A DNA stretch of 64,000 nt from Methanomicrobia archaeon (GTDB lineage Archaea > Methanobacteriota_B > Thermococci > Methanofastidiosales > NM3). The notes under the pieces are model-generated. The model was not told the DNA's origin, did no database searches, and saw nothing but the letters and a program-made list of their open reading frames with translations. Position numbers and translations under genes: made by a program. Every line of letters begins with the position of its first letter. Positions within the stretch are counted from its first letter, which is position 1. Location of the stretch: the NCBI GenBank assembly GCA_030603445.1, contig JAUVXU010000002.1:62001-126000 (forward strand), in the 5' to 3' direction. Of this stretch, positions 38,421-45,726 are shown in pieces.

Positions 38421-38897
38421 ATGCAAATAACAGTTATCGGTGCATGTGAGAACGTTTCAAAATCGCTATATGACCTAGCATATACTCTTGGAACAAAGCT
38501 CGCGTCAAGAGGGCATATTGTCATATGCGGGGGTCGCGGAGGCATTATGGAAGCTGTATCAAAAGGAGTAAAAGATGCGGGAGGCATAGTGGTCGGAATC
38601 CTTCCGGGCCTTATACGAAATAGTGGAAATAAATACTTAAGCGTTGAGATACCTACTGGCATCAACGAAATGAGAAATGCAATAGTCGTTGGGTCTGGAG
38701 ATGTCATAATTGCTTTCCCTGGATCATATGGCACCATATCAGAACTTGCATTTTCCATGAGACAAGGAAAAAAGATAATAGTCTTTAGACCTGAAGAGTT
38801 TCCAATAGATTTTTCCTTGCTCAAATATGATAACATAAGGTATGCCCAGACCATAGAGGATGCCTTATTATATGTGGAGGAATCCAATGATTTTTGA
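38421..38897 (+). CDS. LOG-like Rossmann protein (TIGR00725 family)
   Basis: A 158-residue single-domain protein. The motifs GGRGGIMEAVSKGVKDAGG and the later FPGSYGTISELAFSM are the signature of the lysine decarboxylase-like/LOG fold; the equivalent PGGxGTxxE in LOG enzymes is changed to PGSYGT. LOG proteins cut the ribose phosphate from nucleotides, while the TIGR00725 group includes putative molybdenum-cofactor carrier proteins. Which applies is unclear. Its last 11 bases overlap the start of the coiled-coil gene, suggesting coupled translation. Confidence 0.85.
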   Translation: MQITVIGACENVSKSLYDLAYTLGTKLASRGHIVICGGRGGIMEAVSKGVKDAGGIVVGILPGLIRNSGNKYLSVEIPTGINEMRNAIVVGSGDVIIAFPGSYGTISELAFSMRQGKKIIVFRPEEFPIDFSLLKYDNIRYAQTIEDALLYVEESNDF

Positions 38898-40182
38898 TAA
38901 AATATTTGGAAAAAAGAAAAAAGAACATGCACCTCTTGAAAAGAAAGTACTTAAAATGTCAGATATCCCCAAATGGGCGAAAAACGAGAAGAACACAATA
39001 GAACAAGAGATCTTAGAACACTCATTACAATATATAGATCCCATAAATAAATCATTCACTACCTTGAATAAATATATCTTGGAGCTAAATGATAAAGAAC
39101 TTGAGGAAGAAGTGATAAAACGTTTAGAAAACATAACAATAAGCTCAAAGAAAAGTTTTTGCGAAAATATGAAAATAATATTAAATAAATGGAAATATAT
39201 GATTCCAGAAACATATTCTGATTTAACTGCATATATAATCAGAATCGAATCCACACTATTATCAATCAACAAAGCACAAACAACGCATGGAAAATATCTA
39301 GGTATTGTTTTTGAAACGGATTTAAAGAAGATAGGAAAGGAACTAAAAATAATAGTAATATCCCATGATATGATAAAAAACATTGTTTCCAAAAATAGAG
39401 AAAAATGGGAAATACTTTGTTCAGTCAAACCAATATTTGAGGAAATTATTGAAATAGAAAAATATCTATCACAAGCACGAAAAATAGACCTTAAGGAAGA
39501 GATAACAAAATTAGAAAATCAGGCAAATTCCCTGAAAATAGAAAAGAAAAAGTTTCTCTTAAGCCAGGAATATGAGAATTATAAAAATATGCAAGAACGC
39601 ATTACAACCTTAGAAAAACAGGAGCATGAGCTCAATTTAGAGTTGTACAGTGTGTTTGCCACAATAAAAAGGGTATTAAAAAAATATAAGAAAATGGTTG
39701 ATGACAAAAAGTACGCACTTACACAAGAACAAATAGAATTTATAGAAGGGCTTATGGATCATCCTGTAAAAACGCTTAATGAAGACACAGACGAACTTGA
39801 CTTGACAAAAAACTTTGCAACTCATCTACTGTATATGCTAGAAAATGGCAATATCCAAGAGAAAAAAGGGAAATTAGATAAAGCACAAGATGTTGCTATG
39901 CGCATAATAAATGGTGAACTAGATGAGCTGAAACAACAGTACTCATCCACTTTTTCAGAACTTATATCTGTGAAAAAGAAATATAAAGAAATAAATCTAG
40001 ATAAACTAGATTCCATAAATAGGAAACAAGAGAAAATTCTTGCCAAAATAAAGCACATCCAAAACGAATTAGAAACTATAGAGAGAGACTCACTAGAAAT
40101 GAAAGACAAGAAAAAGCAGATTATATCAAAATTAAAAGATAAAGTAAATAAAATTAATCCTGAAATATCGTTAAATTTTTAA
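38887..40182 (+). CDS. Large coiled-coil protein of unknown function
   Basis: A 431-residue, highly charged, Lys/Glu-rich protein. It opens with MIFDKIFGKKKKEHAPLEKK and has an all-helical central part without long heptads, then coiled-coil segments around residues 190-260 (KEEITKLENQANSLKIEKKK) and 330-420 (DSINRKQEKILAKIKHIQNE). The ATG at 38887 follows GGAGG by six bases. I recognise no domain. The next gene, 52 bases downstream, encodes a bactofilin-like protein that also starts with a coiled coil, so a filament-associated partner is a reasonable hypothesis. Confidence 0.7.
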   Translation: MIFDKIFGKKKKEHAPLEKKVLKMSDIPKWAKNEKNTIEQEILEHSLQYIDPINKSFTTLNKYILELNDKELEEEVIKRLENITISSKKSFCENMKIILNKWKYMIPETYSDLTAYIIRIESTLLSINKAQTTHGKYLGIVFETDLKKIGKELKIIVISHDMIKNIVSKNREKWEILCSVKPIFEEIIEIEKYLSQARKIDLKEEITKLENQANSLKIEKKKFLLSQEYENYKNMQERITTLEKQEHELNLELYSVFATIKRVLKKYKKMVDDKKYALTQEQIEFIEGLMDHPVKTLNEDTDELDLTKNFATHLLYMLENGNIQEKKGKLDKAQDVAMRIINGELDELKQQYSSTFSELISVKKKYKEINLDKLDSINRKQEKILAKIKHIQNELETIERDSLEMKDKKKQIISKLKDKVNKINPEISLNF

Positions 40183-40234: not shown

Positions 40235-40972
40235 ATGATGGCACTCTTTAGTAATAATGAAAATGATAATCTTAAGATTAAAATTTACAAGATGCAAAAT
40301 GAGAATAAGGGATTAAAAGAACAACTGTTAGAATATGAGAAAGTTTTTGGAAACTTCGAAGACATGAAAAAAGTCACCGACAGAGTGCGCGAAGAAAATA
40401 AGCGTCTGCTTGAAAAACTCGAGGAAAACATTGAAATAAAAGCGAAAATGCAAAAGATAATAGACGAGTTAAAAGAAGCTGTAAACGCAAAGAAAGAAGA
40501 GTTTCAGTACAAGTTAACTTCAATGGAGTCAAAAGACGATAACATCGTTGTAGGAAACAATGCAGAATTCTATGGTGGATTATCAACACCAAAAAGCATT
40601 TCTACAGGAAATAATGTTATTGTGCATGGAAATTTACGCTCCTCAGAAAAAATTAGCCTGGGCGATAAGAATCAAATCAAAGGCACAATCAGTTGTAAAA
40701 AAGGCATATCAACTGGAAAAGAATGCATACTCGAAAAAGATATATCCACCAAAGGCGGAGTAAATATAGGGGAAAAATGCATATTACAAAACATTAACTC
40801 AAAACTAGACGTATATGTCGGAAAAGGGTCTGCTGTTAAAAAAATAATAACGGAGGGTAATGTATTTCTCAAAGACAACGTGAAGATAGAAGATGGGATC
40901 GAGTATAAAGAATCAATAAATATTGGCAAGGATGTTTCAATATCAGGAGAAATAAAGACAATAAAAAAGTAA
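40235..40972 (+). CDS. Bactofilin-like polymer-forming protein with N-terminal coiled coil
   Basis: A 245-residue protein. Residues 12-95 form a predicted coiled coil (LKEQLLEYEKVFGNFED, EENKRLLEKLEENIEIK). From about residue 104 the sequence is a run of short beta strands with repeating Gly/Asn/Lys turns: VVGNNAEFYGGL, VIVHGNLRSSEKISLGDK, QIKGTISCKKGISTGKE, and so on. That is the right-handed beta-helix pattern of bactofilins, whose helices stack into nucleotide-free filaments. Bactofilins normally lack such a coiled coil. It has a GGAGG ribosome site and is the last gene before a convergent cluster. Confidence 0.75.
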   Translation: MMALFSNNENDNLKIKIYKMQNENKGLKEQLLEYEKVFGNFEDMKKVTDRVREENKRLLEKLEENIEIKAKMQKIIDELKEAVNAKKEEFQYKLTSMESKDDNIVVGNNAEFYGGLSTPKSISTGNNVIVHGNLRSSEKISLGDKNQIKGTISCKKGISTGKECILEKDISTKGGVNIGEKCILQNINSKLDVYVGKGSAVKKIITEGNVFLKDNVKIEDGIEYKESINIGKDVSISGEIKTIKK

Positions 40973-42721: not shown

Positions 42722-43225
42722 CTACTGCTCAAACACTGGGATCTTATCTTCATCATTGAACTTTGAAAATGTGAATACCCCGTCCTCATCGTAAACCAGT
42801 TCAAATTCTTGTATATCTGGGATTTGACAGTAAAATCTATAGATATATTGTATATCTCCTTTATAGATGGTGTAAGTCTTGTCCTTGGTAAATATAACAA
42901 ATTCTTCATGTTTAGGGTAAAAGCGTACTTTAAGTATGTCTTTTTGGTCGATATTCTCTATGCCTGGTGCATATTGCGACAGTAAATGAAGATTAGTCTT
43001 ACTGCATAAGTCATAGTATATTAGTTTACATATTGTAACGTTCCTATAGTACTGCTCACCCCGATCCAAATCTAAGAACGAGGAGTAATAGTTTACACGC
43101 CCCCTAATTTCAATATCTTGTGATAAGGCAATGGATTTTTCTTGTAAAGGCCCATCATTTTTCAAGAATTCTAGCAAATCCTCGACTTTACCAAGTATTG
43201 CAGTTTTGTTTCTTGGCACTGCCAT
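42722..43225 (-). CDS. Unknown 167-residue protein, first gene before the NapH-like protein
   Basis: A soluble alpha-plus-beta protein with no signal sequence, beginning MAVPRNKTAILGKVEDLLEF. It contains a region of aromatic-rich beta strands (FVIFTKDKTYTIYKGDIQYI and ELVYDEDGVFTF) that looks like a small barrel or PH-like fold. There are three scattered cysteines and no metal motif. I recognise no family. It is only three bases upstream of the NapH-like gene, so the two are very likely one operon driven from the divergent argF promoter region. Confidence 0.65.
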   Translation of the reverse strand: MAVPRNKTAILGKVEDLLEFLKNDGPLQEKSIALSQDIEIRGRVNYYSSFLDLDRGEQYYRNVTICKLIYYDLCSKTNLHLLSQYAPGIENIDQKDILKVRFYPKHEEFVIFTKDKTYTIYKGDIQYIYRFYCQIPDIQEFELVYDEDGVFTFSKFNDEDKIPVFEQ

Positions 43226-43236
43226 AGTGTTATGTC

Positions 43237-43264
43237 ATCCAAAGGCTAAAAATACTTTTTGGAT
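43237..43264. promoter_or_regulatory. Inverted repeat between divergent operon and argF
   Basis: ATCCAAA, 14-base spacer, TTTGGAT: perfect 7-bp arms located 12 bases upstream of the minus-strand operon start and just upstream of the argF TATA element. A protein bound there could affect both directions. Confidence 0.3.
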
Positions 43265-43267
43265 AAG

Positions 43268-43284
43268 TTTTATATTTATATAAA
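43268..43284 (+). promoter_or_regulatory. TATA element of argF
   Basis: TTTATATTTATATAAAA. Transcription expected about 25 bases below would begin near 43297-43305, at the base of the leader hairpin, and about 75-80 bases before the argF start codon, an unusually long leader for this genome. Confidence 0.5.
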
Positions 43285-43296
43285 AACACATCTTCT

Positions 43297-43360
43297 TGCA
43301 TGTGAAAGGTTCTAGAGGTTATCACCATAGTTTCCGACTCTCAAGAACTTTTCACATGTA
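43297..43360 (+). promoter_or_regulatory. Strong leader hairpin before argF
   Basis: CATGTGAAAGGTTCT (43299-43313) pairs with AGAACTTTTCACATG (43344-43358): 15 consecutive pairs, one of them G-U. Two more pairs extend the base, and after a two-base bulge AGAG (43314-43317) pairs with CTCT (43338-43341), closing a 20-base loop. The argF ribosome site GGGGAG begins some 6 bases after the stem. It could be a regulatory RNA element, or a DNA operator. Confidence 0.6.
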
Positions 43361-43379
43361 CCTTAGGGGAGTTCGTAAT

Positions 43380-44300
43380 ATGATCAAATGTTTTAAAGAA
43401 AGAGACTTCATATGCCTTAACGATTTTTCATGTGAAGAACTCTATTTTTACCTCCATATAGCACAACACATCAAGTATCAAACCAAATTAGGCCTATTCT
43501 CGTCTGTACTTAGAAACAAGAATCTTGCCATGATATTCCAAAAGCCATCCCTTAGGACAAGAACATCATTTCAGATAGGTATGAATCAACTAGGTGGTTC
43601 TGCATTATATATAAGCCCAAACGAGATACAACTTGGGAAACGCGAATCCACTAAAGATGTAGCTTGTGTTTTATCCGGATATGTTGATGGGATAATGGCC
43701 AGAGTATTTTCCCATGAAGATATATTAGATCTAGCAGAACATGCGAACGTTCCTGTCATAAATGGCCTCTCAGACCTACTGCACCCTTGCCAGGCCCTGG
43801 CAGACTATCTTACAATATTAGAGCATTTTGGACGCATACAAGGGCTTACGCTTTGTTATGTTGGGGATGGAAACAATGTGTGCCATTCACTAATGTATGG
43901 CGCCTCCAAATTTGGGGTAAATATGAAAGTAGCATGCCCAAAAGGATACGAACCAGACAAAAAAGTGCAAAAAGAAGCTGGTGCAAATGGATTGTCACTT
44001 ACTATAACAAACGACCCTATTGAAGGCGTATGCGGGGCAGATATAGTATACACAGACACATGGACGTCAATGGGACAGGAAAAAGAACATGATAAACGGC
44101 TAAGAACATTTATTGATTTTCAGCTTTCATCAGAACTATTGGCACACGCAAAAGACGATCATATCGTTATGCATTGCCTTCCTGCACACAGGGGCGAGGA
44201 AATAACTGACGAAGTCATAGATGGCCCACACTCTGTTGTGTATGAGGAAGCTGAAAATAGATTACATGCACAAAAAGCAATACTTGCATTGAATCTATAA
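43380..44300 (+). CDS. argF: Ornithine carbamoyltransferase
   Basis: Makes citrulline from ornithine and carbamoyl phosphate in arginine synthesis. The carbamoyl phosphate loop is [14 protein letters not shown], the middle motif is [14 protein letters not shown], and the ornithine-side motif is [11 protein letters not shown]; all catalytic residues are in place. At 306 residues it is a normal length. The frame is open back to a TTG at 43296, but ATG at 43380 has GGGGAG eight bases before it and gives the typical [15 protein letters not shown] start, leaving the hairpin at 43297-43360 in the leader. No other arginine genes are nearby. Confidence 0.95.
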
Positions 44301-44367: not shown

Positions 44368-45576
44368 TTATATATTTATACGAAGAGTATCCAACTTATG
44401 TTCAACGTATTCTAGTATCTGTGTGGCCTGTTGTGATTCTTCCTTAGATATCATATCATTGCGTACTAAACTATAGAATGTGTTTAGCAAGCTTGAGTAT
44501 TTCTCATAAAGCAGGAAATATTGGGGCGGGGATGCAGTATTAACATTTTCTGTAAAAAGCCGGAGATCGTTTAAGTATTCCTTCCAGAAAACACGTATGC
44601 CAAAGTACTCGTCCTTTTTCTTTTTCTCCTCTGTATCATACTGCTTTCGAATCTCTCTTTTTGATTCATTCTTTAGTTTGTCCATCTTTTCCTTGCAAAG
44701 ATAAAGATTGTTTTTAAGAGATGTCAAAGTTGATTTTTCCAAATTATCCTTTATTGAATTATACGTCTCAACAATTGCCCTATATTCGTGGTAAAGTGTT
44801 TCAAAATCCTTTGATCCTGAATGTTTTAAAAACTCCCCGATACGCTTTTCCAGTAACTCATACTCTTCCTTTGCCTTATGTACTTTTATCACTGAGAGAA
44901 TTCTGTTTTCAAATTCTTCCAAACGTTTTGTAACTACCATCTCATATGTTGGATTTCCCTGGGGCAAGCTTTTCTTTTTTTCAATTAGAACGTTATAATC
45001 ATATTGTGCCCTTTCAGGATCTTTTTCTATCTGGGGCCTGGTATAACGGCGTAAATTTTTGTCAAGCTCTGTAAGAAATCCTTCAAGCAGTGTTTTTTCG
45101 TTTTGTTTTTTATAATTTTCTTGAACCGAATTAATAAGCTCTCTAAAGGAAGAGATATTATGTTCAATATTGCCCCTAATTTCAAAATCTGTGTTAAATG
45201 GCAATACGGAAGCAGTTTTTTCCAATAATAATAGCATTAGTTGTGAGTTCTCAATATTTTGACTTATGTAAGCTAGAGAATATTTACGTAGCACTTTTTC
45301 CGTTTTTTCAAATAAATCTTGGGCAATATCTTTAGTAGGTTTAAGTATTACACTGTCTTCTTGTGCTATTACTTCTTCAGTGTCTTGCATCGCAGATTCC
45401 TCAAGATTATGTGTTTCCTTTTCATCAGGAGACTCCATGGTTTGGATAACACTAGGTTCTTCTTCGGATAATTGTTCAGTACTTTCGAGCATTTTTTCTT
45501 TTTTTTCTATTAAATCCTGCTCTTCTTTCAAAATCCGTATATATTCCTTTATATCCTGTCCTACCTCTTCAGCCAT
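44368..45576 (-). CDS. Helical/coiled-coil protein, unknown
   Basis: A 402-residue soluble, highly charged protein. The first 85 residues are acidic and low-complexity (EEDSVI, PDEKETHNLEES), followed by a long, mostly helical body with repeated patterns such as LLEGFLTELDKNLRRY and YELLEKRIGEFLKHSG spaced like helical bundles. A Lys-rich coiled coil (NESKREIRKQYDTEEKKKKD) lies at about residues 310-335. No metal, nucleotide or membrane motif is seen. It starts from ATG, with GTG two codons upstream as an alternative, and stands alone between argF and the DNA ligase. Confidence 0.6.
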   Translation of the reverse strand: MAEEVGQDIKEYIRILKEEQDLIEKKEKMLESTEQLSEEEPSVIQTMESPDEKETHNLEESAMQDTEEVIAQEDSVILKPTKDIAQDLFEKTEKVLRKYSLAYISQNIENSQLMLLLLEKTASVLPFNTDFEIRGNIEHNISSFRELINSVQENYKKQNEKTLLEGFLTELDKNLRRYTRPQIEKDPERAQYDYNVLIEKKKSLPQGNPTYEMVVTKRLEEFENRILSVIKVHKAKEEYELLEKRIGEFLKHSGSKDFETLYHEYRAIVETYNSIKDNLEKSTLTSLKNNLYLCKEKMDKLKNESKREIRKQYDTEEKKKKDEYFGIRVFWKEYLNDLRLFTENVNTASPPQYFLLYEKYSSLLNTFYSLVRNDMISKEESQQATQILEYVEHKLDTLRINI

Positions 45577-45726
45577 TGGCACCTACCTTTGCTCTACTTT
45601 TTTCAAATCTTTTATATATAACTTTCTATTTCTAGGAGATATAATGGCAAAAACATGAAATAAATAATTAAAAAATGGGAAAATGAAAAGAATTTTAAAG
45701 GCGGAAACTCTTCTAATATAGATACA

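Follow-up and report, generated by a model that had tools for sequence, protein, structure and literature searches.

Regulatory leader RNAs that have been established in archaea are few. The protein L7Ae autoregulates through a kink turn in the 5' leader of its own mRNA (PMC5539422, PMC6298567); this leader hairpin takes on structure only once L7Ae has bound, and in the bound state it hides the ribosome site (PMC6298567). Among bacterial ribosomal-protein leaders, the S15 operator is a pre-formed mRNA structure that is bound by protein and controls translation (mentioned in PMC6298567). A 2021 paper called the fluoride riboswitch the only natural archaeal riboswitch to have been experimentally determined (PMC8241225). 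The majority of 5' leaders in T. kodakarensis measure 10-50 nt (median 16 nt), with about 20% at 50-300 nt (PMC4247193), so the length of the leader described here is by itself unexceptional. We analysed a window of 64,000 nucleotides of archaeal DNA, in which a long hairpin precedes argF. Among the papers searched for an arginine riboswitch, the phrase turned up in a single passing use. The argF hairpin is very probably a genuine RNA control element that has not been described before.

The earlier note, made from the letters of the window, had read the downstream gene as argF. This assignment is borne out by a score of 404.8 bits against the TIGR00658 equivalog (cut-off 280.85), identifying a true ornithine carbamoyltransferase. 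The enzyme is probably biosynthetic because argG is present in the same archaeal family. Judged from its relatives' genomes and from the nearest solved enzymes, the lineage probably belongs near Thermococci/Methanofastidiosa. In a class relative (G024, the only genome of family f5 tested), an argF homologue was found and no argG above the cut-off; its ornithine carbamoyltransferase may function outside complete arginine synthesis. The gene order around argF is common to the family genomes in the stretches compared. Three conserved neighbours have no Pfam match, namely 42722-43225 (-, 167 aa), 44368-45582 (-, 404 aa) and 38860-40182 (+, 440 aa), the first two having no NCBIfam match either, and the product of 40235-40972 (+) is bactofilin-like with a score below the cut-off.

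The hairpin itself could be read directly from the sequence as it had been proposed. The outer stem pairs CATGTGAAAGGTTCT (43299-43313) with AGAACTTTTCACATG (43344-43358) in 15 unbroken pairs, counting one G.U pair (43308/43349), which amounts to one mismatch when the repeat is read as DNA, and two added pairs at the base (43297-43298 with 43359-43360) extend this stem, P1, to 17 pairs. The inner pairs AGAG/CTCT (43314-43317 with 43338-43341), the 2-nt CA bulge (43342-43343) and the 20-nt loop match the sequence as well. RNAfold gives a slightly different interior, in which GAG (43315-43317) pairs with CTC (43340-43342) and GTT (43318-43320) with GAC (43336-43338). A third, imperfect copy of an arm, CATGTGAAGAACTCT (three mismatches), lies within argF at 43429-43443 (+). 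The region 43275-43385 has a folding energy of -33.4 kcal/mol, compared with -18.5 +/- 2.7 kcal/mol for dinucleotide shuffles (z -5.5; 0 of 200 shuffles as stable). The coordinates are collected in the table.

Features of the argF leader in the window and of the possibly related hairpin in genus g6
Feature	Coordinates	Strand	Remarks
TATA-like box TTTTATAT	43268-43275	+	read directly; overlapping alternative TTTATATAA at 43275-43283
5' arm of outer stem P1	43297-43313	+	17 pairs with 43344-43360, including the G.U pair
Conserved interior AGAGGTTATCACCATAGTTTCCGACTCTCA, presumed recognition element	43314-43343	+	30 alignment columns
5' side of inner helices, GAG and GTT	43315-43320	+	RNAalifold partners CTC 43340-43342 and GAC 43336-43338
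Apical loop ATCACCATAGTTTCC	43321-43335	+	unpaired in the predicted consensus fold; nearly invariant
3' arm of outer stem P1	43344-43360	+	pairs with 43297-43313
GGGGAG purine-rich stretch, probable ribosome-binding site	43366-43371	+	read directly; outside the hairpin
argF, ornithine carbamoyltransferase, 306 aa	43380-44300	+	TIGR00658; PF02729 and PF00185; PDB 1pvv and 1a1s
g6 hairpin loci	L053:1501-1557 (-); L052:616-672 (+); L054; L055; L056; L057; L058		conserved in genus g6

With spans of up to 80 nt considered, no longer stem occurs in the 64-kb window. The stem length by itself is only marginal evidence because 3 of 30 shuffled windows also hold a stem of at least 17 pairs, a count in favour of an inverted repeat that arose by chance in the AT-rich leader. 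The significance of the hairpin comes from its conservation. We compared the genome of the window (G000) with four relatives of its family and found argF in three of them (G001, G003 and G004; 64-70% protein identity); no argF was found in the fourth (G002), a genome that is 77% complete. The hairpin precedes the syntenic argF in all four family genomes that have the gene, so that the conservation among close relatives on which the proposal depended is indeed present. Its place, its covariation and the identity of its loop are thus kept in four diverged genomes, and the probability of a chance repeat is practically negligible.

The four sequences align over 58 columns; their origin from one archaeal family is the main limit of this alignment. 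Compensatory changes in the stem, which the earlier note had suggested looking for among orthologous argF upstream regions, are abundant. P1 is only 21-71% identical between pairs of sequences, and 10 of its 14 aligned pairs have changed on both sides (14 cells), which 0 of 500 shuffles reach. Standard pairs fill 95% of the pair cells, compared with 79% after shuffling and no more than 55% when the partners are slid by 1-3 columns. RNAalifold independently gives the same structure from the alignment, and the inner helix contributes one supporting change, from U.G to U-A at 43320/43336 in G004. Across the 30 columns of the interior, pairwise identity is 83-93%. Substitutions at the fourfold-degenerate sites of argF have reached saturation, with pairwise identities of 27-34% and 1 of 62 sites unchanged in all four genomes, which argues that the interior has been held by selection. 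Taken together, the alignment makes it very likely that the argF hairpin is a functional RNA element. The pair cells comprise 67 Watson-Crick pairs, 9 G.U pairs and no A.C pair; the occurrence of G.U without A.C favours the + strand as the functional RNA, although it is partly a consequence of folding that strand.

Two readings at the level of DNA or protein are weighed by the same alignment. ArgR/AhrC ARG boxes are palindromic operators at the promoters of arginine genes, and the arms of the palindrome are conserved. The argF inverted repeat might similarly be the binding site of an arginine repressor, placed downstream of the promoter, since it is nearly palindromic in G000 and overlaps the predicted start site. 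In the argF element, however, the arms diverge and covary, changing in pairs, and it is the non-palindromic centre that is conserved; moreover, G.U pairs are meaningless in duplex DNA, and other copies of the arm sequence occur in the window at chance level. A DNA operator is therefore very unlikely, and of the two forms that had been envisaged, an RNA switch or an operator, the covariation and the conserved loop uphold an RNA element and speak against the operator. The hairpin could also be coding sequence, either extending ArgF in frame at its N terminus or specifying a leader peptide, as a frame reading RGYxHSFRLSR is open into argF in G000 and G001 (window 43296-43379; L065:4182-4265). Most changes in this frame are nevertheless non-synonymous (CAC/CAA, AGT/GAT, CGA/CAA) and the synonymous positions are invariant; a 1-base deletion shifts the frame in G003 and a stop ends it in G004. 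We regard a coding role as hardly credible.

The position of the hairpin on the transcript can be estimated from the promoter. The distance from the centre of the TATA-like box to motif column 1 (43300) is 28.5 nt in G000, 27.5 nt in G001, 24.5 nt in G003 and 26.5 nt in G004. Placed by the usual archaeal TATA-to-start spacing, the first base of the argF mRNA probably lies no more than about 3 nt from the hairpin base, because the box precedes the motif by 24.5-28.5 nt in all four genomes. This spacing speaks against a start downstream of 43358, which would have refuted the proposal; the second TATA box of G000, if it is the one used, would move the start a few bases inside the 5' arm. The hairpin thus lies, as had been suggested, between the predicted start and the ribosome site, with TATA-like boxes upstream and GGGGAG downstream, and its 3' end is 15-25 nt from the argF start codon in the four genomes.

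The location at the probable first bases of the transcript, together with a very stable fold (-33 to -43 kcal/mol for the leader plus start in the four genomes), would also suit a stabiliser or spacer protecting the 5' end from 5'-to-3' decay, or a loop that pairs with a small RNA or rRNA. Pure stabilisation does not require an interior of about 30 nt that is conserved against a saturated background, and the best second site for the loop on both strands of the family genomes has 3 mismatches in 22, which argues against RNA-RNA pairing. This explanation appears improbable.

The predicted folds are informative about the mode of action. P1 has a pairing probability of 0.82-0.98 across the four genomes, and the stretch 3' of the hairpin is largely single-stranded in the predicted ensemble (0.59-0.77 over the four genomes; 0.77 in the window). 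Pairing of the apical loop with the ribosome site is no better than in shuffled versions in any of the four genomes (p 0.08-0.88). The sequence from 43360 is ACCTTAGGGGAG, without a terminator U-tract after the hairpin, which speaks against an intrinsic terminator or attenuator. A stable P1, an open downstream stretch, and the lack of loop-to-ribosome-site pairing and of a U-tract suggest that the hairpin is formed in advance as a docking site and does not switch between two folds. By eye, we found no consistent ACA as in an H/ACA guide and no C/D boxes as in a C/D guide.

We propose, with about equal chances of being right or wrong, that a protein or another macromolecule binds the argF hairpin. 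The element would be a cis-acting RNA hairpin at or close to the 5' end of the argF mRNA in one archaeal family, in which the variable, covarying P1 might serve as a rigid scaffold presenting the conserved internal helix and loop of about 30 nt. The interior would be recognised in trans, most likely by an RNA-binding protein that is linked to the arginine supply or to the level of the enzyme itself. The bound complex, 15-25 nt before the start codon, could then hinder (or help) ribosome loading at argF, or it could protect the 5' end of the mRNA.

The same anatomy, a variable and covarying P1 around a near-invariant core, is also that of a small aptamer. The interior could accordingly be a metabolite riboswitch for arginine, ornithine, citrulline or carbamoyl phosphate, the ligand altering ribosome access to argF. 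The leader belongs to a biosynthetic gene whose pathway is present, and the related Thermococcales have riboswitch-like leaders (PMC4247193). Yet no expression platform was seen, as P1 is stably formed with the ribosome site outside it, the loop pairs with that site at chance level and no terminator U-tract follows; argF is the sole carrier, and known Rfam classes give no match. Metabolite sensing is a plausible but less probable explanation. A classical riboswitch is less likely than a protein-binding hairpin because neither an alternative fold nor an expression platform is apparent, and we consider a protein partner the more likely first choice and a metabolite aptamer the second. It is rather unlikely that the hairpin represents a new riboswitch class sensing arginine or a urea-cycle intermediate, which would be confined to one family and built from one small hairpin that lacks a conventional expression platform.

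The distribution of the element is narrow. A covariance-model search of 115 genomes of the phylum gave matches at E <= 0.05 only in the four family genomes, and pattern and covariance-model searches of these genomes revealed no second copies, leaving one hairpin per genome, at argF. No hairpin was found in the viral contigs searched, and the sister families f2, f3 and f4 and the class relatives f5 had no counterpart in their argF leaders when these were read. Rfam gave only chance-level matches for the window region 43100-43600, and the leaders of G001, G003 and G004 had no match with an E-value of up to 1. A similar hairpin occurs in seven genomes of genus g6 with E-values of 0.07-0.87; together these genomes count as one independent observation. 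It carries CUUAGAG...CGACUCNNAAG at the same stem position as the core of the argF hairpin; by itself, the core pattern does not exceed the control, and the inner pairing is unlike that of the argF hairpin. The g6 hairpin lies directly 3' of a conserved BRE/TATA-like promoter stretch and adjoins, on the opposite strand, the 3' end of a gene for a coiled-coil, cysteine-rich membrane protein. It may be a small RNA or an antisense RNA, and a distant relative of the argF hairpin.

With its near-invariant core at an amino-acid biosynthesis gene, the argF hairpin offers a concrete 58-nt target for experiments. If a protein reads it, that protein would be a new archaeal mRNA-binding regulator, and if a metabolite does, the hairpin would define a new riboswitch class. 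The S15 operator differs from the argF hairpin in organism, gene and sequence, and the binding partner at argF is hypothetical. In its proposed working, the nearest analogue is the kink-turn leader of L7Ae, likewise an archaeal 5' leader hairpin that is read by a protein beside the ribosome-binding site. Unlike that leader, the argF stem is stable unaided and leaves the ribosome site outside, and the defining features of a kink turn are lacking by eye: GA stands before CUC on the 3' strand, no GA follows a 3-nt bulge on the 5' strand, and no tandem G.A pairs were seen after such a bulge. The fluoride (crcB) and preQ1 riboswitch RNAs of Thermococcales differ in that the argF leaders match no Rfam family and the gene is argF, yet they share with the argF hairpin a structured 5' leader in related organisms, with a variable closing stem around a conserved core (PMC4247193, PMC8241225).
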